Shown here piece by piece: positions 420 through 11,496 of a stretch of DNA of 49,688 bases. The notes below the pieces were generated by a model, which was not told the DNA's origin, did not search any database, and worked only from the letters and a program-made list of their open reading frames with translations. The translations under genes and the position numbers were made by a program. The first letter of the stretch is position 1. Every line of letters begins with the position of its first letter. The stretch comes from Lysobacterales bacterium 63-13 (GTDB lineage: Bacteria; Pseudomonadota; Gammaproteobacteria; Xanthomonadales; Rhodanobacteraceae), in NCBI GenBank assembly GCA_001899855.1, contig MKWR01000030.1, positions 1 through 49,688 on the forward strand. The letters run 5' to 3'.

Positions 420-752
420 ATGCGATGCGTCCTCGCCCTGTCGGTTTCGCTGCTTATGGCACTGGTGGCCGCGTGCAGCGACCAGCCGGCCGACAACCTT
501 GCCGATGCCCTGGCCACCGATCCCATACGGCTCAAGGCATTGCGCGCGCAATGCGCGGCCGACCGCCAGACCACGGGCGAGGACGCTTGCCGCGCCGCCG
601 CCGAAGCCTTCCGACGGCGCTTCTTCTCCGGTCAGACCGGGCCGGATGAATACCAGACGCTGGCCGACCTGCCGCCGATCCCGCCGAGCTTCGATGAACC
701 GGGCGATGGCACGGCGCCGGCATCGCCGGCCGAACCGGAGGGCACGCCATGA
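420..752 (+). CDS. TrbK-like entry-exclusion lipoprotein
   Basis: A 110-residue lipoprotein. The N-terminus has a basic start, a hydrophobic core and a lipobox ending LVAAC at residues 15-19, so the mature protein would be lipid-anchored at Cys19. The body is short, has two further Cys (about residues 45 and 57), and ends in a Pro/Ala/Glu-rich tail. Small lipoproteins between trbJ and trbL are usually TrbK or EexN, which block redundant mating into cells that already hold the element. The last four bases overlap the trbL start (ATGA at 749-752), implying translational coupling. Sequence is weakly conserved in this family, so the call leans on position and the lipobox. Confidence 0.7.
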   Translation: MRCVLALSVSLLMALVAACSDQPADNLADALATDPIRLKALRAQCAADRQTTGEDACRAAAEAFRRRFFSGQTGPDEYQTLADLPPIPPSFDEPGDGTAPASPAEPEGTP

Positions 753-2149
753 ATGACGTGACCATCATCGACCAGTTCCTCAATATCTTCTCCGCCTACA
801 TCGACTCGGGTTTCGGGCTGTTGCAGGGCGAAGTGGCCTTCCTCACCGCCACGCTGATCGTCATCGACATGACGATCGCCGGACTGTATTGGGCGATGAG
901 CCACGCCACCGGCCAGGGCGAGGACGTGATCGCCAAGCTGCTGCGCAAGGTGCTCTACGTCGGTGCCTTCGCCTACATCATCGGCAACTTCAACTGGCTG
1001 GCCGGCATCGTGTTCCGATCCTTCGCCGGGCTGGGCCTGACGGCCACCGGCTCGGCGATCACCATGGAAAACTTCTTGCAGCCGGGCCGGCTCGCCAAGA
1101 CCGGCATCGACGCCGGGGCGCCGATTCTGGAGCAAGTCGGCGAGATGGCCGGCTTCCCCGAGGTGTTCGTGAACCTCGATGCCATCACGGTGATGTTCCT
1201 CGCGTGGCTGGTCGTGGTGCTGTGCTTTTTCGTGCTGGCGATCCAGCTTTTCATCACCCTGATTGAGTTCAAGCTGACCACGCTCGCCGGGTTCGTGCTG
1301 GTGCCGTTCGCGTTGTGGAACAAGACCTCGTTCCTGGCAGAGAAGGTGCTGGGCAATGTCGTTTCCGCCGGCATCAAGGTGCTGGTGCTGGCCGTGATCG
1401 TGGGCATTGGCTCGGGCCTGTTCGCTCAGTTCCAAGTCCATCCCGCCGAGCCGTCCATCGACCACGCACTGGTCATCATGCTGGCCTCGCTCACCTTGCT
1501 GGCGCTAGGGATCTTCGGCCCTGGCATCGCCACGGGCCTCGTCTCCGGTGCGCCCCAGCTCGGCGCGGGCGCGATGGCCGGCGCTGCGGTGGGTGCTGCC
1601 GGAGCCGCTGTTGCTGTCGGTGCCGCCGCGACGGGCGTAGGCGGCGCGGTCATGGCCGGGGCGCGCATGGCGCCTGCCGCGGCCAAGCTCGCCGGCAGTG
1701 GTGCGCGTGCTGCCACCTCGACGGCCAGCAGCGCACGCTCGGCGTTCCAGGCCGGTTCCGCCGCCGCAGGCGGTGGCGCGAAAGGCGCGATGGCCGGCTT
1801 GGGAAATGTCGCCAAGACCGGCGCGCAGTCTGCCGGACGGGGTGCAGCGTCCCGCGCATCCGCCTTCGGCCAGAAGATGACCAGCTCCTTCCGTGCCGGG
1901 TGGAACGGCCCGACTGACGACGGTGCGGGTGCGGCATCCGGTGGAGCCGGAGCATCCAGCCAGGCCTCCACAGGCGAAGCCGCAGCGGGCGGCGCCAACG
2001 CGCAGAAGCAAGAACAGCCCGCTTGGGCCAAGCGGCTGCACCGCCGCCAGCAACTCACTCATGCCGCGACCACCACCGCCCACGCGCTGCGCGGTGGCGA
2101 TGGCGGCGGCTCCGGCCAGGGGCCGAGCCTGCGCGATTCCAATTCATAA
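749..2149 (+). CDS. trbL: TrbL, inner-membrane channel component
   Basis: A 466-residue polytopic membrane protein of the P-type conjugation system, corresponding to VirB6. The N-terminal ~260 residues contain about six hydrophobic segments with the family pattern, including FLTATLIVIDMTIAGLYWAM, VVVLCFFVLAIQLFITLIEF and the following LTTLAGFVLVPFALW. After residue ~270 the protein turns into a long Ala/Gly-rich tail of low complexity, usual in ICE-encoded TrbL. It starts within the stop of the lipoprotein gene and ends 12 bases before trbF. It should form the inner-membrane pore through which DNA and protein substrates pass. Confidence 0.92.
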   Translation: MNDVTIIDQFLNIFSAYIDSGFGLLQGEVAFLTATLIVIDMTIAGLYWAMSHATGQGEDVIAKLLRKVLYVGAFAYIIGNFNWLAGIVFRSFAGLGLTATGSAITMENFLQPGRLAKTGIDAGAPILEQVGEMAGFPEVFVNLDAITVMFLAWLVVVLCFFVLAIQLFITLIEFKLTTLAGFVLVPFALWNKTSFLAEKVLGNVVSAGIKVLVLAVIVGIGSGLFAQFQVHPAEPSIDHALVIMLASLTLLALGIFGPGIATGLVSGAPQLGAGAMAGAAVGAAGAAVAVGAAATGVGGAVMAGARMAPAAAKLAGSGARAATSTASSARSAFQAGSAAAGGGAKGAMAGLGNVAKTGAQSAGRGAASRASAFGQKMTSSFRAGWNGPTDDGAGAASGGAGASSQASTGEAAAGGANAQKQEQPAWAKRLHRRQQLTHAATTTAHALRGGDGGGSGQGPSLRDSNS

Positions 2150-2161
2150 GGAGAACTGACC

Positions 2162-2866
2162 ATGCGATTTAAACGACCGCAGGTGCGCTACGCCGACACG
2201 CCGCAGCCTGCCACTCCGTACCAAGCTGCCGGCCAGGTGTGGGACGAGCGCATTGGCTCGTCCCGCGTGCAGGCGAAAAACTGGCGCCTCATGGCCTTCG
2301 GCTGCCTCGCGCTTGCGCTGCTGATGGCGGGCGGCCTGGTCTGGCGCTCGGCGCAGTCCATCGTCACGCCCTATGTGGTGGAGGTGGACAACGCGGGCCA
2401 GGTGCGCGCCGTGGGCGAAGCCGCTACGCCGTACCGGCCCAGCGATGCGCAGACGGCGCACCACATCGCGCGTTTCGTCACGCTGGTTCGGTCGCTGTCC
2501 ATCGACCCGATCGTGGTGCGGCAGAACTGGCTGGACGCCTACGACCACACCACCGACAAGGGCGCGGCCGTGCTCAACGACTACGCGCGCGTGAACGATC
2601 CGTTCGCGCGCATCGGCAAAGAGTCGGTAACGGTGCAGATCACCAGCGTCGTGCGCGCCAGCGACACGTCGTTCAACGTGCGCTGGACGGAACGCCGCTA
2701 CGTCAATGGCGCCGCGGCTGGGCTGGAGCGGTGGACGGCCGTGGTGTCCATCGTGCTCCAGCCGCCGCGCACCGAAGAACGCCTGCGCAAGAACCCCCTG
2801 GGCATCTACGTCAATGGCCTGTCGTGGAGCCGCGAACTGGATTCTTCCGAAGGAGCCAAGCCATGA
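2162..2866 (+). CDS. trbF: TrbF, inner-membrane protein of the conjugation channel
   Basis: A 234-residue bitopic protein of the VirB8/TrbF family, which bridges inner-membrane and periplasmic parts of the conjugation machine. One membrane span lies at about residues 41-61 (LMAFGCLALALLMAGGLVW), followed by a periplasmic domain with the family motifs TPYVVEVDNAGQ and FNVRWTERRYVNG. The start is preceded by a good ribosome binding site (AAGGAG at 2148-2153). The stop overlaps the trbG start by four bases (2863-2866). Length is normal for the family. Confidence 0.92.
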   Translation: MRFKRPQVRYADTPQPATPYQAAGQVWDERIGSSRVQAKNWRLMAFGCLALALLMAGGLVWRSAQSIVTPYVVEVDNAGQVRAVGEAATPYRPSDAQTAHHIARFVTLVRSLSIDPIVVRQNWLDAYDHTTDKGAAVLNDYARVNDPFARIGKESVTVQITSVVRASDTSFNVRWTERRYVNGAAAGLERWTAVVSIVLQPPRTEERLRKNPLGIYVNGLSWSRELDSSEGAKP

Positions 2867-3864
2867 ATGCACTTTTCCGTAGATCCGCTTTGCCGGTGAT
2901 CCTGCTTGCATCAACCATCTTGTTCACAGGCTGCGCCACGCAGGGCAAGCCGCCGCCGGTGATTTCGCTCGATGAGCCGGTGCAGGCGCAGCCACTGCCC
3001 GAACCGCCTCAGCCAGTGGAAGTTGTGACTGTGCCCGAGGTGTTGCCGATGCCGGCGCAGTTGAAGCCAGTGCCCGAGGGCGAGGAAGCCAAGCCTGCGC
3101 CGGAACCGGCCGACGAGAAGGTGCGCGTCTCGCGTGCCAACGCCGAGGCACGCATCGCGCCCACGCGCGAGGGCTATGTCAACGCGATTCAGGTGTGGCC
3201 CTTCACCGATGGCGCGCTGTATCAGGTCTATGCGGCCGTGGGCCGAGTGACCGTGATTGCACTCCAGCCGGGCGAGGAACTGGTGACGGTGGCCGCTGGC
3301 GATACCGTGCGCTGGATCGTGGGCGACACGTCCAGCGGCAACGGCGCCGACCTGCGCGTGAACGTGCTGGTCAAGCCGATCCGCTCGGGTCTCAAGACGA
3401 ATCTGGTCATCACCACCAGCCGCCGGACGTACCTGCTGGAGCTGACCTCGACCGAGAAGACGTGGATGGCGTCGGTGTCCTGGGAGTACCCGCGCGACCG
3501 GATGCTGGCCTTGCAGCGCCAGGCGCAGGCGGCCAGCGCCGCCGCGCCTGTCGGTACCGGGCTATCGCTGGAAAACCTGCGCTTCCGCTACGCGATCAGC
3601 GGCAGCAGTCCGCCGTGGAAACCACTGCGCGCCTTCGATGACGGCGAGAAGGTCTATATCCAGTTCCCGCCGGGCATCGCACAAGGCGAGCTGCCGCCGC
3701 TGTTCGTCATCGGTGCGCAAGGCGACGGGCAACTGGTCAATTACCGTTTCCGTTCACCGTACTACATCGTCGATCGTCTTTTCGGCGCCGCCGAGTTGCG
3801 CTTGGGTGGCGACAAGGGCGACATGGTGCGGATCGAGCGCACGGATGGCACGCGGAGGAACTGA
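2863..3864 (+). CDS. trbG: TrbG, outer-membrane/periplasmic channel protein
   Basis: A 333-residue protein of the VirB9/TrbG family. It begins with a lipoprotein-type signal (hydrophobic stretch ending LFTGC at about residues 20-24), so it is likely lipidated. A Pro/Glu-rich linker follows to about residue 85, then the TrbG beta-domain with IQVWPFTDGALYQVYAAVGR and a C-terminal segment with LRFRYAISG and PPLFVIGAQGDGQLVNYRFR. With TrbI it should form the envelope-spanning core. The ATG at 2863 overlaps the trbF stop, which fixes the start. trbI follows one base after the stop. Confidence 0.92.
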   Translation: MNALFRRSALPVILLASTILFTGCATQGKPPPVISLDEPVQAQPLPEPPQPVEVVTVPEVLPMPAQLKPVPEGEEAKPAPEPADEKVRVSRANAEARIAPTREGYVNAIQVWPFTDGALYQVYAAVGRVTVIALQPGEELVTVAAGDTVRWIVGDTSSGNGADLRVNVLVKPIRSGLKTNLVITTSRRTYLLELTSTEKTWMASVSWEYPRDRMLALQRQAQAASAAAPVGTGLSLENLRFRYAISGSSPPWKPLRAFDDGEKVYIQFPPGIAQGELPPLFVIGAQGDGQLVNYRFRSPYYIVDRLFGAAELRLGGDKGDMVRIERTDGTRRN

Positions 3865-3865
3865 C

Positions 3866-5125
3866 ATGGGCCAGGACGACACCCCCGACCTTGCCACGCC
3901 GCAGGCGGGCAAGATGGCGCCCGAGGCGGTGGCGCTGCGCGCCCAGCCGCGTCCGGTCACGCGCCTGAACCGGCGCACGCTGGCCATCCTCGTCGGCGGC
4001 CTGTCGGTCGCCGTGCTCGGGGCCACGATCTGGTCGCTACAGCCGCAGCGGCGCGGGGCCAACGAGCAGACCGAGCTTTACAACGTCGATCGCGTGTCCA
4101 AGTCCGAAGGGCTGGATGGCCTGCCGGCCGACTACTCGAAGCTGACGCCGAAGGTGCCCGAGCTGGGGCCGCCGCTACCGGGCGACCTCGGACCGGCCAT
4201 CGTGGCCTCGCAGCAGCCGGCCGTGGCCGCCTACTCGGCGCCCGGCCACGACCCGAATGACGCCTTGCGCAAGGAGGCGGAAGCCGCTGCGGCTTCGTCG
4301 GTGTTCTTCCGCTCGGGCGGCCAAGCCGCCGCCATGGTGGCGCAGGCGGCGCCGGGTGCAGCAAGCACGCTCGCGGCCTTCGACCCGCTCGCTGCCGGGC
4401 CCGCTTCGACATCGGCCCAGCCCGCCGACCCGACCGCCGTGCAGAACCGGCAAGATCAGAAAGAGGCATTCCTGAAAGCCGGTTCTACGGAAACCCGCAA
4501 TTCCGGCAACCTGGCGTTGCCGGCGTCGCCGTATCAGGTGATGGCGGGAACGGTGATCGCCGGTGCGCTGGTGACGGGTATCAAGTCGGACTTGCCGGGC
4601 GACGTGATCGCCACGGTGACGGAGCCGGTCTATGACTCGGCCACGGGCAAGTTCCTGCTGATCCCGCAAGGATCGCGCATCCTCGGGCGCTACAACAGCC
4701 AGGTCAGCTACGGGCAGAGTCGCGTGCAGGTGGTGTGGAACCGGGTCATCCTGCCCGACACGTCCTCGCTGGCGCTCGACAACCTTGTCGGCACCGACCC
4801 GGCCGGCTACGCCGGCCTGGAGGACGACGTGGACTGGCATTGGAATCGCATCATCGCGGGCGCGGTGCTGACGACGCTGCTGGGCGTCGGCGCTGAGTTG
4901 GCTGCGCCGGAGAACCGGCAGGACGGCAACCGCATCGTCATTGCCGGACGCGACAGCGCACAGGACAGCATCAATCAGGTCGGCCAGGAGATGACCCGGC
5001 GCAACATGAACATCCAGCCGACGCTGACGACGCGGCCGGGCCTGCCGGTTCGCATCATCGTCAACCGGGATCTGGTGCTGCGGCCGTACCAGCCGCTGTT
5101 CTTCAATCGGGGAGTTTCGCAATGA
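3866..5125 (+). CDS. trbI: TrbI, VirB10-like channel core protein
   Basis: A 419-residue protein of the VirB10/TrbI family. It has a cytoplasmic N-terminus, one membrane span at about residues 36-55 (LAILVGGLSVAVLGATIWSL), a long Ala/Pro-rich periplasmic linker to about residue 220, and the conserved C-terminal domain from about residue 225, with YQVMAGTVIAGALVTGIKSD, LIPQGSRILGRYNSQVSYGQ and PVRIIVNRDLVLRPY. It spans both membranes and senses energy from the coupling ATPases in this family. I chose ATG 3866, just after the trbG stop. The stop overlaps the DUF2274 start. Confidence 0.93.
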   Translation: MGQDDTPDLATPQAGKMAPEAVALRAQPRPVTRLNRRTLAILVGGLSVAVLGATIWSLQPQRRGANEQTELYNVDRVSKSEGLDGLPADYSKLTPKVPELGPPLPGDLGPAIVASQQPAVAAYSAPGHDPNDALRKEAEAAAASSVFFRSGGQAAAMVAQAAPGAASTLAAFDPLAAGPASTSAQPADPTAVQNRQDQKEAFLKAGSTETRNSGNLALPASPYQVMAGTVIAGALVTGIKSDLPGDVIATVTEPVYDSATGKFLLIPQGSRILGRYNSQVSYGQSRVQVVWNRVILPDTSSLALDNLVGTDPAGYAGLEDDVDWHWNRIIAGAVLTTLLGVGAELAAPENRQDGNRIVIAGRDSAQDSINQVGQEMTRRNMNIQPTLTTRPGLPVRIIVNRDLVLRPYQPLFFNRGVSQ

Positions 5126-5364
5126 GCGCGACCAAGAAGCTGCGGCTCGGGCCGCTGCCCAAGACCGAGAGCGTCAAGCTGACCTTTGCCTGCCCGGCCA
5201 GCCTGAAAGCCGACCTCGACCGCTACGCCGCGTTGCACGCGCAGGCGTATGGCGAGGCGGTCGATGCCATGACGCTGATCCCGCACATGCTGGAAGCCTT
5301 CATGGCCGGGGATCGTGGCTTCAAGCGCACACAGCCCAAGAACGGAAAAGCCGCCCCTGCGTGA
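5122..5364 (+). CDS. DUF2274 protein, last gene of the trb cluster
   Basis: An 80-residue cytoplasmic protein with no signal or membrane segment, matching the small DUF2274 proteins that follow trbI in many ICEs. It has a basic N-terminus (SATKKLRLGPLPKTESVKLT), a helical middle (SLKADLDRYAALHAQAYGEA) and a conserved LIPHMLEAFMAGDRGFKR segment. The fold pattern is reminiscent of small ribbon-helix-helix-like proteins, but I cannot assign DNA binding from sequence. It overlaps trbI by four bases (5122-5125). Its last codons double as one arm of the terminator of the oppositely oriented tRNA-Leu. Confidence 0.85.
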   Translation: MSATKKLRLGPLPKTESVKLTFACPASLKADLDRYAALHAQAYGEAVDAMTLIPHMLEAFMAGDRGFKRTQPKNGKAAPA

Positions 5365-5375
5365 GCAGGGGCGGC
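5346..5375 (-). terminator. Rho-independent terminator of the intron-bearing tRNA-Leu
   Basis: Read on the minus strand, just 7 bases after the tRNA CCA end, there is a perfect 11-bp GC-rich stem (5365-5375 with 5350-5360), a 4-base loop, and a TTTT run (5349-5346). The structure lies inside the last codons and the stop of DUF2274, so coding sequence of the ICE also works as terminator for the convergent tRNA. On the plus strand the stem is not followed by T residues. Confidence 0.8.
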
Positions 5376-5382
5376 TCTGGAT

Positions 5383-5701
5383 TGGTGCCCGAGGCCGGAA
5401 TCGAACCGGCATGACCGTGAGGTCGAGGGATTTTCTTACCACTTCGGCTTTCGCCGCCGTCCTGCTCACACAGGGCGTTCGTGGTCTGGAGCACGCCTTC
5501 ACCATAGCCTTACAGCCGTAGGTGCCCGCCGTCTGCTCTCTACACCTTCCCAAGCGCATAGCTTGGGCTTGGCTCGGCGTTGGCTCGGATGCCGAAGCAT
5601 CCAGGGCTTTCGCCGAATTTGACGGGCTTCACTTCGGGCGTTTCCCCCCGAAGGCTCAAATTGTTCAAGTCCCTTGTGTCTACCGATTTCACCACTCGGG
5701 C
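5383..5701 (-). tRNA. tRNA-Leu(UAA) interrupted by a group I intron
   Basis: The first exon is 5701-5667 (35 nt) and the second 5434-5383 (52 nt, with encoded CCA). Joined, they give an 87-nt class II tRNA: a perfect 7-bp acceptor stem (GCCCGAG with CTCGGGC), a D-arm with GGTAGAC, anticodon stem AGGGA/TCCCT with loop CUUAAAA (anticodon UAA), a long variable arm, and the T-arm GCCGGTTCGATTCCGGC. Neither exon alone can make the anticodon loop, and the sequence between has group I intron structure. It sits between the trb genes and a broken ordinary tRNA-Leu and is followed by its own terminator. No clear promoter is visible upstream. Confidence 0.93.
5435..5666 (-). ncRNA. Group I self-splicing intron (IC3-like) in tRNA-Leu(UAA)
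   Basis: A 232-nt intron lies between the first and second base of the UAA anticodon, the site used by cyanobacterial tRNA-Leu introns. The exon end CUU pairs with an internal GAG, giving the U-G wobble needed at the 5' splice site, and P1 extends as GAA-CAA-UUU. P2 is CTTCGGG/CCCGAAG. Core blocks closely match my memory of the Azoarcus tRNA-Ile intron: GTCAAATTCGGCGAAA, AACGCCGAGCCAAGC, GAAGGTGTAGAGA and CTATGGTGAAGGC. P7 is GAGCA/TGCTC, where Azoarcus has GACUA/UAGUC, a compensatory change. A GCGAAAGC hairpin (P9) precedes the terminal G at 5435. It is too small for a homing endonuclease. Confidence 0.92.
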
Positions 5702-5861
5702 GTAGCGCGGTGCGCTGGAAACACCTACCTCTATCTACTGGCGCCTAGTTGGCTCCTGATCGCCAAGCCAAGCTATGAAGCTACATCTTGGATGCTCGCA
5801 AACCGTTGTCACTATTGACCTTCTGGCCCGGTAGTTCAAGCAGAAAGGACTTGACAGAACA
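5702..5861. other. ICE-end spacer between the two tRNA-Leu sequences
   Basis: About 160 bp with lower GC content than both flanks. I see no open reading frame with coding character. It should hold the promoter of the intron-bearing tRNA-Leu (minus strand) and the integrase-binding arm sites if the ICE boundary is at the broken tRNA. No convincing -35/-10 pair could be identified. Confidence 0.45.
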
Positions 5862-5876
5862 GATTTTAAGTCCCTT
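5862..5876. other. Putative ICE attachment-site core in a tRNA-Leu anticodon loop
   Basis: The minus-strand sequence AAGGGACTTAAAATC is the last stretch shared with a normal tRNA-Leu(UAA) gene before the sequence diverges, so the crossover should lie within it. Anticodon-loop sequences are a known target class for tyrosine integrases. The matching copy would have to be found at the far end of the element. Confidence 0.55.
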
Positions 5877-5902
5877 GCGTATACCAGTTTCGCCATCCGG
5901 GC
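5862..5902 (-). pseudogene. 5' half of a chromosomal tRNA-Leu(UAA), cut after the anticodon loop
   Basis: On the minus strand the 41 bases from 5902 read as the acceptor 5' strand GCCCGGA, a tRNA-Leu D-arm, and anticodon stem plus loop AAGGGACTTAAAATC with anticodon UAA. The sequence then departs from any tRNA: the 3' anticodon strand is TCTGT instead of TCCCT, and there is no variable arm or GTTCGA T-loop. It resembles the E. coli leuZ product over this half. The break point is consistent with site-specific integration in the anticodon loop, with the missing 3' half expected at the other end of the ICE, outside the window. Confidence 0.82.
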
Positions 5903-6176: not shown

Positions 6177-7742
6177 ATGCTCAAGTACATCCTGCTGGCC
6201 GCTGCCTGGCTGTTGCCGTGTGCCGTGGCACATGCGCAGGCAGCAACGCCCTGGGAGGTCGCCGTCAAGGAGTCGATCGACGCAACCCATGTTGTCGATC
6301 AGCCCCTGGCAGCGGATGGCTCGCTGGTGCCGAGCGACCTGACCCTGGATACGAGCTTCCTGAATACCGGGATGTTCGCATTCTGGCCAACGCCAGCACC
6401 GCCGAATGCCACGGACATTGAAGATGGCCTGCGCGTATTCCCGTGGAGCAACTGCAACCCGCTTTGCACGCACAAGGGCTTTTACGTCGTCGGTCGGGTC
6501 AAGAATACCGATGGCACCTGGCAATCGAGCATCACGCGCAGGAAGGCAGACGGCTCGCTGGACCTGGCTTTCGGCACGTCCGGCTGGATGTATCCAAGCT
6601 CCCAGGCCAGCGATGTCGTCGATGCCGCGCTCGGTGCCGGAAAAATATACATCCTGACAACCGTGGATCTTGGCGGCATTCCGGTCATGCGCGTCACCTG
6701 CACCGATCTGGCCACGGCGGACAGTTGCTTCACAGGTTTCGGCGGCTTCGTCAGCTTCGGCGCATCGGCCAGCGGTGCCATCCGCAGCGCCCATGCGCGA
6801 CGCATCGTCTACGACGCCCGCTACGGGCTGTTCATCGCCGGGCGTGTGTGGACAACCGCGCGCGGATGGGAGCTTGCAGCCGCCCGCCTTGATGCGGATA
6901 GCGGCGGCTTGGTCACCGCATTCCACGGTGACGGCACGAACGTCGGCTTGCCCGCCTATGCGGCGCAAACGGCTGCGGACATCGACATCCTGGAGTTGGC
7001 CGTCACACCGGCCGGGAATCCCGGCACCGAGCGGCTGTATATCGCCGGCACGGTCAAACTCACTGCCGCCGACTACGATGGATTCGTGCTCGGACTCGAT
7101 CCGCTCAGCGGATTTTCGACAACGGGCTGGTTGTGGCCGCAGGTCTATTTCGAAGGCGACAATCTGGACTTCAAGAAGGATGCGGTCACCGCCCTGACCG
7201 TGCTGCGCACGGGTCGCGTGGTGATGGCGGGCTGGTCGGAAACCGACGTTGCCGGGGAGCGTGTCGCCTTCATCCAGCGCGTCAACAATGACAACAGTGT
7301 TGATTCTTCGTTCTGCACTTCAGGGTCTTCCGGAAAATGCAGAATCCCCGTGCGCCCCCTGGTTGGCGTTGTCAACGACGAATTACCGGTGGCGTTGGCC
7401 GAGCGCTACCAGAACCGCGATCTGGTGGTCGCCATGAAAACCCGGACAAGATCGGGCGATTACCATCCAGCACAGGCCGTCATGCAGTTCAGCTCCAATG
7501 GCAACGTGCTCCACGCGCTGCAGACCCTGGATTTCGCCGCGGATCCTGGCGACGCGCAGTGGTCGCGTCCATTCGACATGTGGGTCGGCAATATCGCATT
7601 CGTCACCGCCCCGGTGAACGAGGTGGTCACGGTCGTCGGCACGCGCTTGTACCTGCCCACCGACTACGACGGCACGCTGTCGCAGATGCTCGCCAACGAC
7701 AGCATCTTTGCCGACCGCTTCGGCGGCACGCAGGGTGATTGA
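6177..7742 (+). CDS. Secreted delta-60-repeat-like protein
   Basis: A 521-residue exported protein of unknown function. A Sec signal peptide covers about residues 1-22, ending AVAHAQA. The body has several stretches like the delta-60 repeat, in which a short beta segment ends in a D-S/F-G pattern: KADGSLDLAFGTSGW, LTLDTSFLNTGM and RVNNDNSVDSSF. Such proteins are predicted to form beta-propeller-like folds at the surface or outside the cell. The C-terminus SIFADRFGG resembles an IFxDGF-type tail that I associate with many secreted Lysobacterales proteins, possibly a sorting tag. The start has a good ribosome binding site (GAGGGAG at 6162-6168). It is monocistronic, with a strong terminator after it. 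Confidence 0.7.
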   Translation: MLKYILLAAAWLLPCAVAHAQAATPWEVAVKESIDATHVVDQPLAADGSLVPSDLTLDTSFLNTGMFAFWPTPAPPNATDIEDGLRVFPWSNCNPLCTHKGFYVVGRVKNTDGTWQSSITRRKADGSLDLAFGTSGWMYPSSQASDVVDAALGAGKIYILTTVDLGGIPVMRVTCTDLATADSCFTGFGGFVSFGASASGAIRSAHARRIVYDARYGLFIAGRVWTTARGWELAAARLDADSGGLVTAFHGDGTNVGLPAYAAQTAADIDILELAVTPAGNPGTERLYIAGTVKLTAADYDGFVLGLDPLSGFSTTGWLWPQVYFEGDNLDFKKDAVTALTVLRTGRVVMAGWSETDVAGERVAFIQRVNNDNSVDSSFCTSGSSGKCRIPVRPLVGVVNDELPVALAERYQNRDLVVAMKTRTRSGDYHPAQAVMQFSSNGNVLHALQTLDFAADPGDAQWSRPFDMWVGNIAFVTAPVNEVVTVVGTRLYLPTDYDGTLSQMLANDSIFADRFGGTQGD

Positions 7743-7765
7743 ACGGCGCTGATCGGCGACGCTTT

Positions 7766-7802
7766 GGCGCAATCCGGCGGGATCCGGGTTGCGCCGTTTT
7801 TT
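7766..7802 (+). terminator. Rho-independent terminator after the delta-60 protein gene
   Basis: A stem GGCGCAA/TTGCGCC (7766-7772 with 7789-7795) with an inner TCCGG/CCGG extension is followed by G and six T residues. It ends transcription 24 bases beyond the stop codon at 7742. In the remaining ~290 bases up to the sigma factor gene I see no other gene or clear signal, although the frame of the sigma factor stays open upstream. Confidence 0.85.
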
Positions 7803-8096
7803 CCGCAGGCCGCGGCAACGGATGGCGATTGCGCGACTGCACGAGGCAAGGTGCGCGTGAGCCGTACCGGTCACGACGCAGAGGTCTTCTTCATCCCCGG
7901 CGGTCTGCCCATGCCAGCATCACGCACGCATTGCCTTGGCCCGCGCATCGCCCTTGCCGCTTGTCGAACAAGCCCGGGCAACGGGCGCTTTTGCCGCAGG
8001 CGGTTGAGAAGCCGATCACCGACACGCATACTCGCGCCATCGGTCAGCCGACAGCGCAGGTGCCAGGAAGTTGCTTTCAGCCAAGGTTTGTGGCGC

Positions 8097-8672
8097 ATGA
8101 ACCATCCCGCAGCGGTTCCGGCCGAGGACACGCTGGCCCTGGTGCAACGCTGCGCTGCCGGTGACAAGGCCGCCTACAACCAGTTGTTCGAGACGATCTA
8201 TCAGGATCTGCGGCGGCGTGCGCACCTGCAAGTTGCCGGTCGCCGCGACGGCACCATGTCGACCACCCTGCTGGTTCACGAGACTTACCTGAAATTGGCT
8301 GGCACGCGCCTGTCGCTGAACGATCGCACGCATTTCTTCGCCATTGCCGCGCGCGCCATGCGCCACATCCTGATCAACGCGGCGCGCGACCGTGCCGCGC
8401 AAAAACGCGGCGGCGGCCAGCAGCAAGCCACCTTCGACCCGGATGCGCTGGCCGCACCCGAGTTGAGCCACGACCTGCTCGGCCTTGATGCCGCCATGCA
8501 GGCGCTGGAAGCCAGCGACGCCCGCCTGGCGCAGGTGGTGGAACTGCATTTCTTTGCCGGTCTCGACTTTGCCAGCATTGCCGAACTGCTGGATCTGTCC
8601 GAGCGTACCGTGGCGCGTGACTGGCGCGCCGCACGCGCAATGCTGCGCATGCACCTGGAAGACTCTGCGTGA
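8097..8672 (+). CDS. ECF-type RNA polymerase sigma factor
   Basis: A 191-residue sigma factor resembling the TIGR02999 (Sig-70_X6) group. Sigma region 2 is at about residues 15-85 (YNQLFETIYQDLRRRAHLQV, then TTLLVHETYLKLA and FFAIAARAMRHILINAARDR); region 4 is at about 125-185 (VVELHFFAGLDFASIAELLD, LSERTVARDWRAARAML). The frame is open upstream, but homology begins at the ATG at 8097. The last four bases overlap the kinase gene (8669-8672). ECF factors paired with a Ser/Thr kinase, such as ECF43 with PknS or PknT in Xanthomonas and Vibrio, are activated by phosphorylation; membership in that system is inferred from gene context only. Confidence 0.88.
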   Translation: MNHPAAVPAEDTLALVQRCAAGDKAAYNQLFETIYQDLRRRAHLQVAGRRDGTMSTTLLVHETYLKLAGTRLSLNDRTHFFAIAARAMRHILINAARDRAAQKRGGGQQQATFDPDALAAPELSHDLLGLDAAMQALEASDARLAQVVELHFFAGLDFASIAELLDLSERTVARDWRAARAMLRMHLEDSA

Positions 8673-10946
8673 ACACGCGCTGCGCCGCCCTGCTGCGCGA
8701 AGCACTGGATCTGCCGGAATCGAAACGACGCGCGTTCCTGGAGCACGCCAGCGCCGGTGATGCCACCTTGCTGGGCAGCCTGTTGCGCCTGCTCGAACTC
8801 GACGCCGACAGCGATCCATTGCTGGATGCGCCGCTGGATGGCGTCGTTGCCGACCTGCTTGCCGATGACGCGGATGCCGCCGACGAAGTGGACGATGTCG
8901 CCGCTGGCGATCGCATCGGCCCGTGGCAGATCATCAGCAAGCTCGGCGCAGGCGGCATGGGCAGTGTCTGGCTGGCTGAACGCGCCGATGGCGTGTACGT
9001 GCAGAAGGTGGCACTGAAGACCATCAAGGGTGCTGGCGCAGTTCCGCCGCGAACGCGCTCTGCTGGCGCGGCTGAAGCATCCCGACATCGCCAGCCTGAT
9101 CGACGGCGGCGTGGACCAGCGGGGTCGCCCGTGGTTCGCCATGGATCACGTGCAAGGCCTCGGCCTGCGCGCCTGGATCGACCGCCAGCCAGCGTTGGAG
9201 GCACGCCTGCGCCTGTTTGAAAAGCTCTGTCGCGCGGTCGCCCACGCGCACCAGCAACTGGTGATCCATCGCGACATCAAGCCCGGCAACGTGCTGGTGC
9301 AAGCCGATGACGAGCCCAAGCTGCTGGATTTCGGCATTGCCAAGCTGCTTGCCGATGACGATGTCGAGCAGACCCTGACCGTGCAGCGCTTCGCCAGCCG
9401 CAGCTATGCCGCGCCGGAGCAACTGCGTGGCGAGGCGGTGACCACGGCCACCGATGTCTACGCGCTGGGTGCATTGCTGTTCGAGATGCTGACCGGCACG
9501 CGCTACGCCAGCGTGCACGAGGGCGATGGCGCGCCAACGCCGGCGAGCCGGGTCGCCAGGCAGGATTCCACCGGCCAGTCACTGCCGGCGACGCTCCTGC
9601 GCGGCGATCTCGATGCCATCGTCACGCGGGCGCTGGCCGTCGAACCGGAACGCCGCTACGCCACGGCACTGTCGCTGGCCGAGGACGTGCACGATCATCT
9701 CGCTGGCAAGACCATCAGCGCGCGGCCTGATGGCTTCGCCTATCGCACCAGCAAGTTCATCCGTCGCCACCGGGTCAGCGTGGCAATTGCCATCATCGGC
9801 TTGCTGGGCCTGCTCGCAACCAGCGGCGTGGCCTTGTCGCAGGCGCGCGCGAAGACTGCCGAAGCGGCACGCACCCAGGTCGCCCTGCAGCGCTCCGAGG
9901 CAATCCGCGGTTTCATCGAATCGGTGTTCCTCGACGCCGATCCGTCCCGCGCGCGCGGCGAGAGCACCACCGCTGGTGAACTTCTCGAAGCGGCGCGCAC
10001 TCGCGTCGCCAGCGATCTCGGCGATCAGCCCGATATCGCCGCGACCATGCTCAATCAGATCGGCAATGTCTATGTGTCGCTGGGCAAGGACGATGTCGCC
10101 AGCGAGATCCTGCACGAAGCACTGGCGATGAACGCACGTGCCGCGCAGCCGTCGCTCTCCGTCGAAGCCCTGGCCGGTGGCCGCCTGGCCTACTACGATT
10201 TCGTTGGCGGCAACGCCGAACTGGCCCTGCAAAAACTCGAGCGCATCATCACCTCCTTGCGCCCACGGCCGGAGCTGGCGGGGGAATTGTCCAAATCGCT
10301 GCAATTCAAGGGCACGGTGCTGCATGCGATCGGTCGCAACGAGGAAGGCCTCGCCGCCAGTGCCGAGGCGGCAAAGGTGCTCGCCACGCATGCCGAAACG
10401 CTGGCCGCCGAATATGGCGTCGCCCTGGTCGTCTACGCCGACGCGGCGGCAGGTGCCGGCCAAGGCTTGCCGGCATTGCAGGCGGTCGAGCAGGCACTGG
10501 CCTTGCCCCTCGTCCGGGATCACGGCGCGCCGGCACTCGAACTTGCCGTGCTCGGTGCCAAGGTACGTGCCCTGCAGGCCTTGCAGCGCGATGCCGAGGC
10601 CGAGCCGATCCTCGGCGAAGTCATCGAGGCATCGAGCAAGCTGTACGGAGCCAATTCCGCACGCACCCGCTACTGGGTCTATCGGCAGGCGCAGGTCCTG
10701 CACAAGCTGGGTCGCCTCGACCAGGGCCAGGCGCGCGTGGATGGCTTGCTCGCGCAGCCAGCCAGCGATACCGAGCAGCCCATCGCCCGATCCGCGTTTG
10801 CGCTCACCGCCGCCGAGATCGCCATCCTCCGGCACAGCCCCGATGCACCGAGGCGCATTGCCGAGGCGCAGGCTATCGCCTGCTCCGCAAGCGGCAACGC
10901 GAGTTTCTGCGAGCGCAGCCGCGCGCTGAAGCCATCCACGGACTGA
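8669..10946 (+). pseudogene. TPR-containing Ser/Thr protein kinase, frameshifted in the N-lobe
   Basis: Two frames together encode one membrane Ser/Thr kinase. Frame one (8669 to about 9031) carries an ~85-residue N-terminal region, the P-loop LGAGGMGSVWLA (from residue 92) and the ATP-binding Lys in VALKTIK (residue 117). The protein then continues in another frame from about 9030: FRRERALLARL (helix C), HRDIKPGNVL (catalytic loop), LLDFGIAKLL, YAAPEQLRG, a membrane span near 9772-9846 and a ~360-residue TPR-like periplasmic part. The usual 6-8 residues between KTIK and the FRRER helix are missing, which suggests a short deletion not divisible by three. A GTG at 9030 could start a product lacking the ATP-binding lobe. 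A sequencing error is the alternative. Confidence 0.8.
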
Positions 10947-11205: not shown

Positions 11206-11279
11206 TGGAGGCCTGGGTCGGAATCGAACCGGCGTACGCGGCTTTGCAGGCCGCTGCATGACCACTCTGCCACCAGGCC
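11206..11279 (-). tRNA. tRNA-Cys(GCA)
   Basis: A 74-nt tRNA with encoded CCA. The acceptor stem GGCCTGG pairs with CCAGGCC, the D-arm contains GCAGAGTGGTCATGC, the anticodon loop CTGCAAA gives anticodon GCA, and the T-arm is GCCGGTTCGATTCCGAC. It lies downstream of tRNA-Gly and pgsA, matching the E. coli order pgsA-glyW-cysT-leuZ. In this genome the leuZ equivalent is no longer adjacent: it appears as the broken tRNA-Leu near 5.9 kb, separated by the delta-60, sigma factor and kinase genes. Confidence 0.97.
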
Positions 11280-11420: not shown

Positions 11421-11496
11421 TGGAGCGGGAAACGAGGCTCGAACTCGCGACCTCAACCTTGGCAAGGTTGCGCTCTACCAACTGAGCTATTCCCGC
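11421..11496 (-). tRNA. tRNA-Gly(GCC)
   Basis: A 76-nt tRNA with encoded CCA. The acceptor stem is GCGGGAA/TTCCCGC, the D-arm TAGCTCAGTTGGTAGAGC, the anticodon loop TTGCCAA with anticodon GCC, and the T-arm CGAGTTCGAGCCTCG. It follows pgsA as in E. coli (glyW), and a good promoter lies directly upstream. Confidence 0.98.

Follow-up and report, generated by a model that had tools for sequence, protein, structure and literature searches.

Gene content of the locus

The window, i.e. the whole stretch of 49,688 nucleotides that was analysed, carries conjugation genes, a tRNA-Leu(UAA) gene interrupted by an intron, one half of another tRNA-Leu(UAA) gene (leuZ) and two further tRNA genes, arranged as follows:

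749-2149 (+): TrbL, conjugation ORF of the ICE (Pfam PF04610, 1.8e-50)
2162-2866 (+): VirB8/TrbF, ICE conjugation ORF (Pfam PF04335, 1.8e-68)
3638-5125 (+): TrbI, ICE conjugation ORF (Pfam PF03743, 4.9e-61)
5122-5364 (+): DUF2274 protein, final ICE gene before the tRNA (PF10038, 5.2e-25)
5350-5375 (no strand): GC-rich hairpin separating the trb operon from the tRNA (inverted repeat GCCGCCCCTGC/GCAGGGGCGGC)
5383-5434 (-): 3' exon of the putative replacement tRNA-Leu(UAA), ICE-borne (ARAGORN, joined exons)
5435-5666 (-): group I intron, 232 nt, at the U34/A35 boundary (RF00028 under cut-off; covariation, 45 introns)
5667-5701 (-): 5' exon of the putative replacement tRNA-Leu(UAA), ICE-borne (ARAGORN, joined exons)
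5702-5861 (-): right arm of the ICE, from TGTTCTGTCAAGTCC... on (G025 and Ottowia beijingensis have similar arms; L001, L138, L089)
5862-5870 (-): attachment core CTTAAAATC in the leuZ anticodon loop (common to both junctions)
5862-5902 (-): disrupted intronless leuZ of the host, 5' half (bases 1-41 of the joined gene match at 100%)
11206-11279 (-): tRNA-Cys, host synteny anchor (ARAGORN)
11421-11496 (-): tRNA-Gly, host synteny anchor (ARAGORN)

The tRNA-Leu(UAA) gene at 5701-5383 on the minus strand consists of a 35-nt 5' exon, a 232-nt intron and a 52-nt 3' exon. An earlier note on this DNA had placed a group I intron in a tRNA-Leu(UAA) gene at 5383-5701, and this was confirmed: the coordinates are exact, the exons join (ARAGORN), and the intron shows covariation in a set of 45 introns. 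The exons, 232 nt apart, join to a tRNA-Leu(taa) of 87 nt with a cloverleaf and a long variable arm, in agreement with the class II tRNA-Leu that had been proposed; the unspliced 5383-5701 received no ARAGORN call by default and was called with the intron option. As had also been claimed, the intron lies between the first and second anticodon bases (U34 and A35) and contains the P7 sequences GAGCA/TGCTC; its terminal base is G. The location of this gene on a mobile element of a gammaproteobacterium held as well, based on the Trb genes, ARAGORN, RF00028 and covariation. The intron and the tRNA had thus been read correctly, but the broken host leuZ 160 nt upstream, and hence the role of the gene, had been overlooked. 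Between the trb operon and the tRNA, a terminator-like match was found at 5351-5368 (one found vs 1.0 in shuffles), and the hairpin at 5350-5375 is a possible two-way terminator.

Group I identity of the intron

The RF00028 search suggested in the earlier note returned a match at 5486-5676 (-) with an E-value of 2e-8; its score of 39.2 bits, however, is below the curated cut-off of 50 bits, at which no match was obtained at the window intron. Only 5 of 20 loci with this intron type (the window's being in the sample) and 2 of 5 in a second sample reached the cut-off, and RF00028 is therefore weak for this subgroup. For the analysis of covariation, 45 introns of the window's type were hand-chosen among 123 distinct ones, and a P1-P9 structure comprising 59 pairs was drawn on the window's own sequence. 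Across these pairs, 90.5% of the cells were paired, and 402 cells showed double changes compared to a shuffled mean of 138.7 (0 of 500 shuffles were as high). When the partners were slid by 1-3 columns, 53-86 double-change cells were left, a comparison that favours the drawn structure because it was drawn on the window's own sequence. The covariation score was 0.385 vs 0.136 in shuffles, and 42 of the 59 pairs contained double changes. P7 was 100% paired and P2 was the weakest helix (68.7% of cells paired); the conserved P3-P9 core, including the P3/P7 pseudoknot, is present and covaries. A U-G pair occurs at the 5' splice site of all 45 introns, and the last intron base is G in 123/123 intron tRNAs, a base that the extraction pattern itself demanded. 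We conclude that 5435-5666 is a group I intron, the covariation being far beyond chance.

The broken leuZ of the host

The 5' half of the host leuZ (first 41 nt, intronless) is located 160 nt upstream of the intron tRNA on the same strand and leads straight into non-tRNA sequence. Its matching 3' half was found on another contig of the window's genome (G000:C28:12914-12968), beside a tyrosine integrase. Joined at CTTAAAA, the two halves yield a tRNA-Leu(UAA) with complete acceptor (7/7) and anticodon (5/5) stems, and relatives of this joined form, 95-99% identical, are intact in seven of nine same-genus genomes; in the remaining two (G001, G006), leuZ had no intact match and the intron-bearing form was present twice per genome. 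The leuZ downstream flank was unmatched in the same-genus relatives and the upstream match extended over only ~40 nt; for this reason, the evidence for an empty site comes mainly from the tRNA itself. In the window's genome (listed as 100% complete), tRNA-Leu(UAA) matches were limited to both leuZ halves, one 3' fragment without a partner, and the copy with the intron. The earlier note had considered another gene as a possible source of tRNA-Leu(UAA); no intact intronless gene was found in this genome. The copy at 5383-5701, spliced by its own group I intron, would then presumably be the cell's source of tRNA-Leu(UAA). The rarity of UUA (1 of 4047 codons in ten sampled ORFs) counts against the replacement explanation.

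The additional tRNA-Leu(UAA)-like 3' half at G000:C1:20962-21002 (L183) is 92% similar; as partner of the window half it was ruled out, since only 1/7 acceptor pairs formed. An extra 3' half was also seen in three relatives (G002, G005, G007), a few kb away from an intact leuZ; these cases resemble ordinary islands that restore their target at the same site. For the window site itself an ordinary restoring island was rejected, because the junction tRNA is broken.

The genes for tRNA-Gly and tRNA-Cys lie upstream of the leuZ half on the same strand, and the adjoining ORFs were read as pgsA and uvrC. In the relatives at L126, L129 and L130, tRNA-Cys precedes leuZ by ~63 nt, and tRNA-Gly, tRNA-Cys, leuZ is the usual gammaproteobacterial gene order. 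In the window, tRNA-Cys and leuZ are ~5 kb apart, and the DNA between them (6177-10946) encodes an ECF sigma factor and a protein kinase. Within 5816-5902, AAGTCC and CCGGGCC of the right arm are by eye complementary to GGACTT and GGCCCGG of the half, and a transcript of the broken leuZ half might fold into a closed stem with the ICE right arm. No sigma-70 promoter was found between the half and the replacement, which is weak evidence either way.

The integrative element

The DNA of the conjugation ORFs (749-5125) is 82% identical in the complete element of G025, and 5346-5902 shows 88% identity to the same genome. The integrase adjoining the 3' half on C28 is a tyrosine integrase of 400 aa with an Arm domain; the element of the window is thus split, with integrase and Trb genes on two contigs. 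In G025, the element is on a single contig: the leuZ halves, at 71501 and 115310, are separated by 43.8 kb; the integrase is next to the 3' half and the intron tRNA next to the 5' half. Between the halves, G025 encodes a DUF3363 protein (a relaxase match just under the cut-off), a coupling protein, TrbE, a chromate transporter and others, i.e. the ICE gene set (integrase, relaxase, coupling protein, type IV secretion) was found in this relative between attachment repeats. The leuZ halves, the core CTTAAAATC and the Trb and integrase genes show at the sequence level that the host leuZ has been split in its anticodon loop by an ICE, which has the halves at its two ends and carries a complete second tRNA-Leu(UAA) just inside its right end, on the same strand as the host half.

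Alternatively, 5383-5701 might be the host's own leuZ containing an intron, and 5862-5902 an unrelated relic. In two genomes (G031, G265), intron-bearing tRNA-Leu genes directly follow tRNA-Gly and tRNA-Cys, the usual place of leuZ, and intron copies can therefore be residents. In the window, however, the half at 5862-5902 matches intact leuZ of the same genus and pairs with the half on C28, and the intron copy recurs in G025 and Ottowia, next to a right arm similar to that of the window; in G025, trb genes accompany it as well. An ordinary resident intron gene was rejected because the halves of the host leuZ are present, and this reading is extremely unlikely.

Near the integrase (L007, G000:C28, 5466-10639) two TIR proteins (one ThsB-like), Nmad2, MazG_C and uracil-glycosylase-like proteins are encoded, and this cargo is perhaps a defence cluster. 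Integrases of the type found here (A1) were detected in 2 of 274 genomes of the class (its own and G193) and in 6 of 299 genomes of the order (its own included). A leuZ half near an A1-type integrase was seen only in G000 and G025, and none in L193 and L207-L211. ICEs of the Tn4371-like family have their own integrase, a trb backbone and a non-tRNA target. On a possible membership in this family, six integrases that are 61-68% identical (G193, G721, G773, G806 twice, and G837) are without a nearby leuZ half.

Recurrence of the arrangement

A pattern scan with one genome per species gave at least 118 loci. The 123 distinct intron tRNAs are the kept part of 148 pattern matches; 25 were dropped (15 duplicates, 7 without a parsed 3' exon, and 3 cut or without an ARAGORN call). 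A broken leuZ 5' half is present upstream, on the same strand, at 23 of these 123 (the script counted 24; L056 was rejected as tRNA-Leu(CAA), and three of the 23, L013, L026 and L139, are decayed), at least 1700 nt of upstream sequence being available for 92 of the 123. Downstream of the intron tRNA or on the opposite strand, a leuZ half was found at 0/123, and 100 of the 123 tRNA-Leu(UAA) intron loci have no visible half; two loci outside the 123 (L011, L112) also display an upstream 5' half. The distance between half and intron tRNA is mostly ~150-240 nt or ~1.4-1.5 kb. In 10 of the 11 longer stretches a protein of 398-449 aa is encoded in between (the exception, L028, spans 2.2 kb). By motif reading these proteins are tyrosine recombinases, 49-79% identical to one another; the one that was scanned just missed the cut-off of PF00589 (25.3 bits, E 1.5e-5; cut-off 27.1).

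An Arm-type integrase accompanies the 3' half in G000, G025, G061, G062, G065 and G066, and in G074 in two reading frames. Across groups, identity is 60-68% among the A1, A2 and G061 integrases and ~30% for that of G065; for the class B integrases it is only ~22-29%, over short stretches. The same arrangement is found in alpha-, beta- and gammaproteobacteria and is associated with two integrase groups that are very distant from each other.

The 3' half was searched for in 22 genomes, and in 16 both halves were joined (a 3' match was lacking in G001, G006, G064, G072 and G077, and a pattern-matched 5' half in G071). Twelve of the 16 joined pairs form perfect tRNA-Leu(UAA) stems. As for the rest, G063 is short of one acceptor pair and G075 of one anticodon-stem pair, the G060 join has a mismatch in a stem and its end is misplaced, and the match in G070 is an AT-rich intact tRNA elsewhere. 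With G060 and G070 left out, own halves fitted fully in 12/14 cases and cross-paired halves in 8/182, and 0 of 20000 permutations were as good. Ten half pairs are on one contig, on the same strand and in the correct order, 7-101 kb apart. The intronless leuZ pattern was matched in 17 of the 18 genomes that have a half, and the broken half was the sole match in 15, the pattern being exact so that a deviant intact gene could escape; G070 and G076 have an intact leuZ besides the broken half, perhaps as binning artefacts. Ten comparison genomes with an intron tRNA and no visible half gave no match to the exact intronless pattern, and in the search of relatives, one (G035) of 11 genomes with a full-length intron copy also holds an intact leuZ.

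Restoration of the Islander type was not found: ARAGORN called a tRNA at 2 of 19 matched places, both being separate intact genes. Two class B junctions (L204, L228) scored 36.1 and 34.1 bits, above the Rfam tRNA cut-off of 29, and ARAGORN called none there; hence not every junction tRNA is plainly dead, and these two may be partly restored. At L062, L204 and L228 the element adds a short tRNA-like 3' part behind the host half, possibly left over from an older attP of the restoring kind.

These tRNAs could also serve in counter-defence, restocking tRNA-Leu cut by anticodon nucleases with no gene being replaced. Enterobacterial plasmids carry an intron tRNA-Leu, which in the single junction read (L004) comes after non-tRNA sequence, as such a role would allow. 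The proximity of the copy to a broken leuZ at 23/123 loci, and the broken half as the sole intronless match in 15/17 genomes (by the exact pattern, which a deviant gene could escape), argue against it, and we consider this role very unlikely.

Surveys starting from the integrase

In a first survey, the class B integrase of L059 was compared with 289 alphaproteobacteria, resulting in 12 matches in 10 genomes. Three loci were at leuZ, all with a half and an intron-bearing replacement (one is the centre genome G075); of the other loci, six were beside tRNA-Met, one beside tRNA-Arg, one beside tRNA-Leu(UAG) and one beside none. A second survey used the G075 integrase against 398 genomes of its order and gave 42 matches in 34 genomes, of which 30 matches were examined. 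Fourteen of these 30 loci were at leuZ, 13 with whole replacements, and the intron was present in 13/13 (seed included); in the fourteenth the replacement is truncated at the contig end. Three of the 13 replacements were seen only in longer stretches; L230 was named tRNA-Phe by ARAGORN with a slightly misplaced intron, and L225 has no half in reach. G075 is counted in both surveys (13/13 and 3/3 intron replacements).

Six further loci of the second survey were at tRNA-Leu(CAA) (L239, L240, L246, L247, L249, L252), and a whole intronless replacement occurs at five of these six broken loci, representing four distinct elements. The split-and-replace layout, therefore, needs no intron. The remaining loci comprised two beside tRNA-Phe, two beside tRNA-Met and six at which no tRNA was found. 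In the case of L197 (G367), where the element is at tRNA-Met, its integrase is preceded by an intact tRNA-Met and followed by a second complete one, which is intronless. The notion that replacement always needs an intron was rejected by the tRNA-Leu(CAA) elements and L197.

Distribution and history of the introns

In the phylogenetic tree, intron tRNAs of the window's type form one supported group with those of the betaproteobacteria Ottowia and Cupriavidus, the window's intron tRNA being 93% identical to that of Ottowia and 89% to that of Cupriavidus. The broken leuZ of Ottowia has a different acceptor stem, which we cite as evidence of mobility; beside the Cupriavidus copy no half was seen. 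Within the order of the window, G037 (Pseudofulvimonas gallinarii) has an identical row in the table of intron tRNAs. Starred branches in the tree force at least three label changes for the class B copies (with the bootstrap not settled), which may be one gain and two losses. The leuZ halves of L139 and L140 are decayed; this and the placement of the G031 and G265 copies are as expected if decaying elements leave an intron copy behind. The intron core pattern occurred in 17/270 alphaproteobacterial and 6/248 gammaproteobacterial genomes, centre genomes included.

The same intron type was also seen in genes for tRNA-Arg, tRNA-Thr, tRNA-Lys and tRNA-Leu(CAA) (L258-L280; assigned by ARAGORN or by eye, some uncertain). 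A broken half upstream was found in 0/9 of these other intron tRNAs, and because nine other tRNA genes carry the intron without it, the intron family is wider than the use described here; for the same reason, an extension of the replacement role to all tRNA introns was dropped.

Two enterobacterial plasmids (L003, CP042640.1; L004, NZ_CP139688.1) carry an A2-type intron tRNA-Leu(UAA) at 4001-4250, in the two stretches viewed near aac(3)-IId. Among 72,556 plasmid records, 1353 contained a match to the 501-base stretch, in 1244 of them across 80% or more of its length, as did 655 of 5,426 E. coli genomes (618 across 80% or more). In L004, the A2 right arm begins at ...GGACTTAAAA; the sequence there is not that of a tRNA, which would suit an insertion at a secondary site. 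In a Bradyrhizobium plasmid (L006, NZ_CP094524.1; ~4700-5240), an intron tRNA-Leu(UAA) close to trb genes is immediately preceded by a fragment similar, by eye, to the end of class B integrases.

Role of the intron

It is very probable that the ICE replaces the broken leuZ with a whole intron-bearing copy. The ICE has entered the leuZ anticodon loop (core CTTAAAATC), thereby breaking the host gene, and supplies a whole intron-bearing tRNA-Leu(UAA) instead of rebuilding its target; once spliced, this copy would serve as the cell's source of tRNA-Leu(UAA). Because the intron is in the middle of the loop and interrupts the sequence used by the integrase (CTT|AAAA), the replacement copy would presumably not be an attachment site. 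With its replacement masked, the element could not recombine with its own tRNA, rivals targeting leuZ would be excluded, and imprecise loss of the element would be costly, depriving the cell of its tRNA-Leu(UAA). In a review, the 7-nt anticodon loop and its stem are likened to the core site of a recombinase (PMC8371274). Retention of the intron for its masking of the attachment site is in our estimation about an even bet, and the explanation as a whole (a replacement leuZ of the ICE, the tRNA source of the cell, with an intron-masked attachment site) is the one we consider probable.

The cores of the elements bear on this question. Disregarding the intron, the 9-nt core of the replacement equals that of the host in 26/26 elements of the intron class, whereas in the intronless CAA class it differs from the broken host core in three of four distinct elements. 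The difference (3/4 vs 0/26, p 0.001) is post hoc, involves non-independent elements and a small sample, and was obtained with patterns that favour the standard core; it fits masking in the intron class and mutation in the CAA class.

The replacement could be real and the intron simply inherited from an intron-bearing donor leuZ, with no shielding. This would account for the common occurrence, in the same families, of intron tRNA-Leu(UAA) genes without a visible half, which in the tree are interleaved with class B copies, for the tRNA-Leu(CAA) elements, which manage with intronless replacements, and for same-type introns in other tRNAs, where no link to an element was found (0/9). Against such simple inheritance, all whole leuZ replacements found integrase-first contain the intron (13/13 and 3/3), two very distant integrase groups both carry an intron copy, and the core is changed in 3/4 intronless CAA elements vs 0/26 of the intron class (p 0.001, post hoc). 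We regard inheritance without shielding as possible and, on balance, somewhat doubtful. Even under masking, the intron did not arise for shielding, because it is found in other tRNAs and at 100/123 loci without a half. More generally, and with a little less than even confidence, we suggest that group I introns in proteobacterial tRNA-Leu(UAA) act as DNA-level shields on elements whose decay leaves resident copies behind, producing a patchy spread.

Comparison with known systems

A tRNA-Leu(UAA) intron of 231 nt was reportedly described from a gammaproteobacterium in 2002, with a P8 motif CCTACG...TATGG. It concerns the same tRNA and the same class of bacterium, and the window also has CCTACG...TATGG; that report is said to describe no broken host gene, element or integrase. 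The earlier note had called the window's case unusual; the intron and its element stand, but this precedent had been overlooked. The introns in tRNA-Ile of Azoarcus and tRNA-Arg(CCU) of Agrobacterium are small and have a similar core, and the cyanobacterial tRNA-Leu(UAA) intron has the same insertion position as that of the window. To our knowledge, none of these has been linked to a broken tRNA gene. Such introns are treated in a review (PMC4033280). The accessible portions of a review on bacterial group I introns (PMC3984707) and of a paper on tRNA fragments (PMC9897764) contain nothing of the intron-replacement kind, and in our search of open-licence PMC papers neither an intron-bearing replacement tRNA on a bacterial element nor a bacterial test of the proposal that introns block integration was found. 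The element-borne copies provide a vehicle for the spread of tRNA introns and, if masking is true, a well-known kind of intron may serve as a shield against DNA integration.

Islands in tRNA genes, as treated in the Islander paper, restore their target from an attP fragment and include an anticodon-centred class (PMC4383910). The elements described here likewise have a tyrosine integrase, a crossover in the anticodon loop and a repeated core; unlike those islands, which restore the target, they leave it broken and supply a whole, different copy. Rebuilding of the target is considered the reason why a tRNA gene can tolerate an island; these elements would break the gene and replace it instead.

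In Archaea, introns in tRNA genes were proposed by Randau and Soll to block integration (as told in PMC4090602 and PMC4033280), and the elements studied here would offer a concrete bacterial system for this proposal that tRNA introns protect against integration. For Caldiarchaeum, Sugahara et al. (2012) presented a model in which tRNA-Thr(GGU) was disrupted by a mobile element, and there too a tRNA fragment, a recombinase gene and an intron-bearing tRNA are found side by side (PMC3293823). That case concerns archaeal introns and one locus, and the intron enters the rebuilt tRNA (PMC3293823); here, in contrast, a group I intron is involved, the replacement is a separate gene, and the arrangement extends over many lineages.
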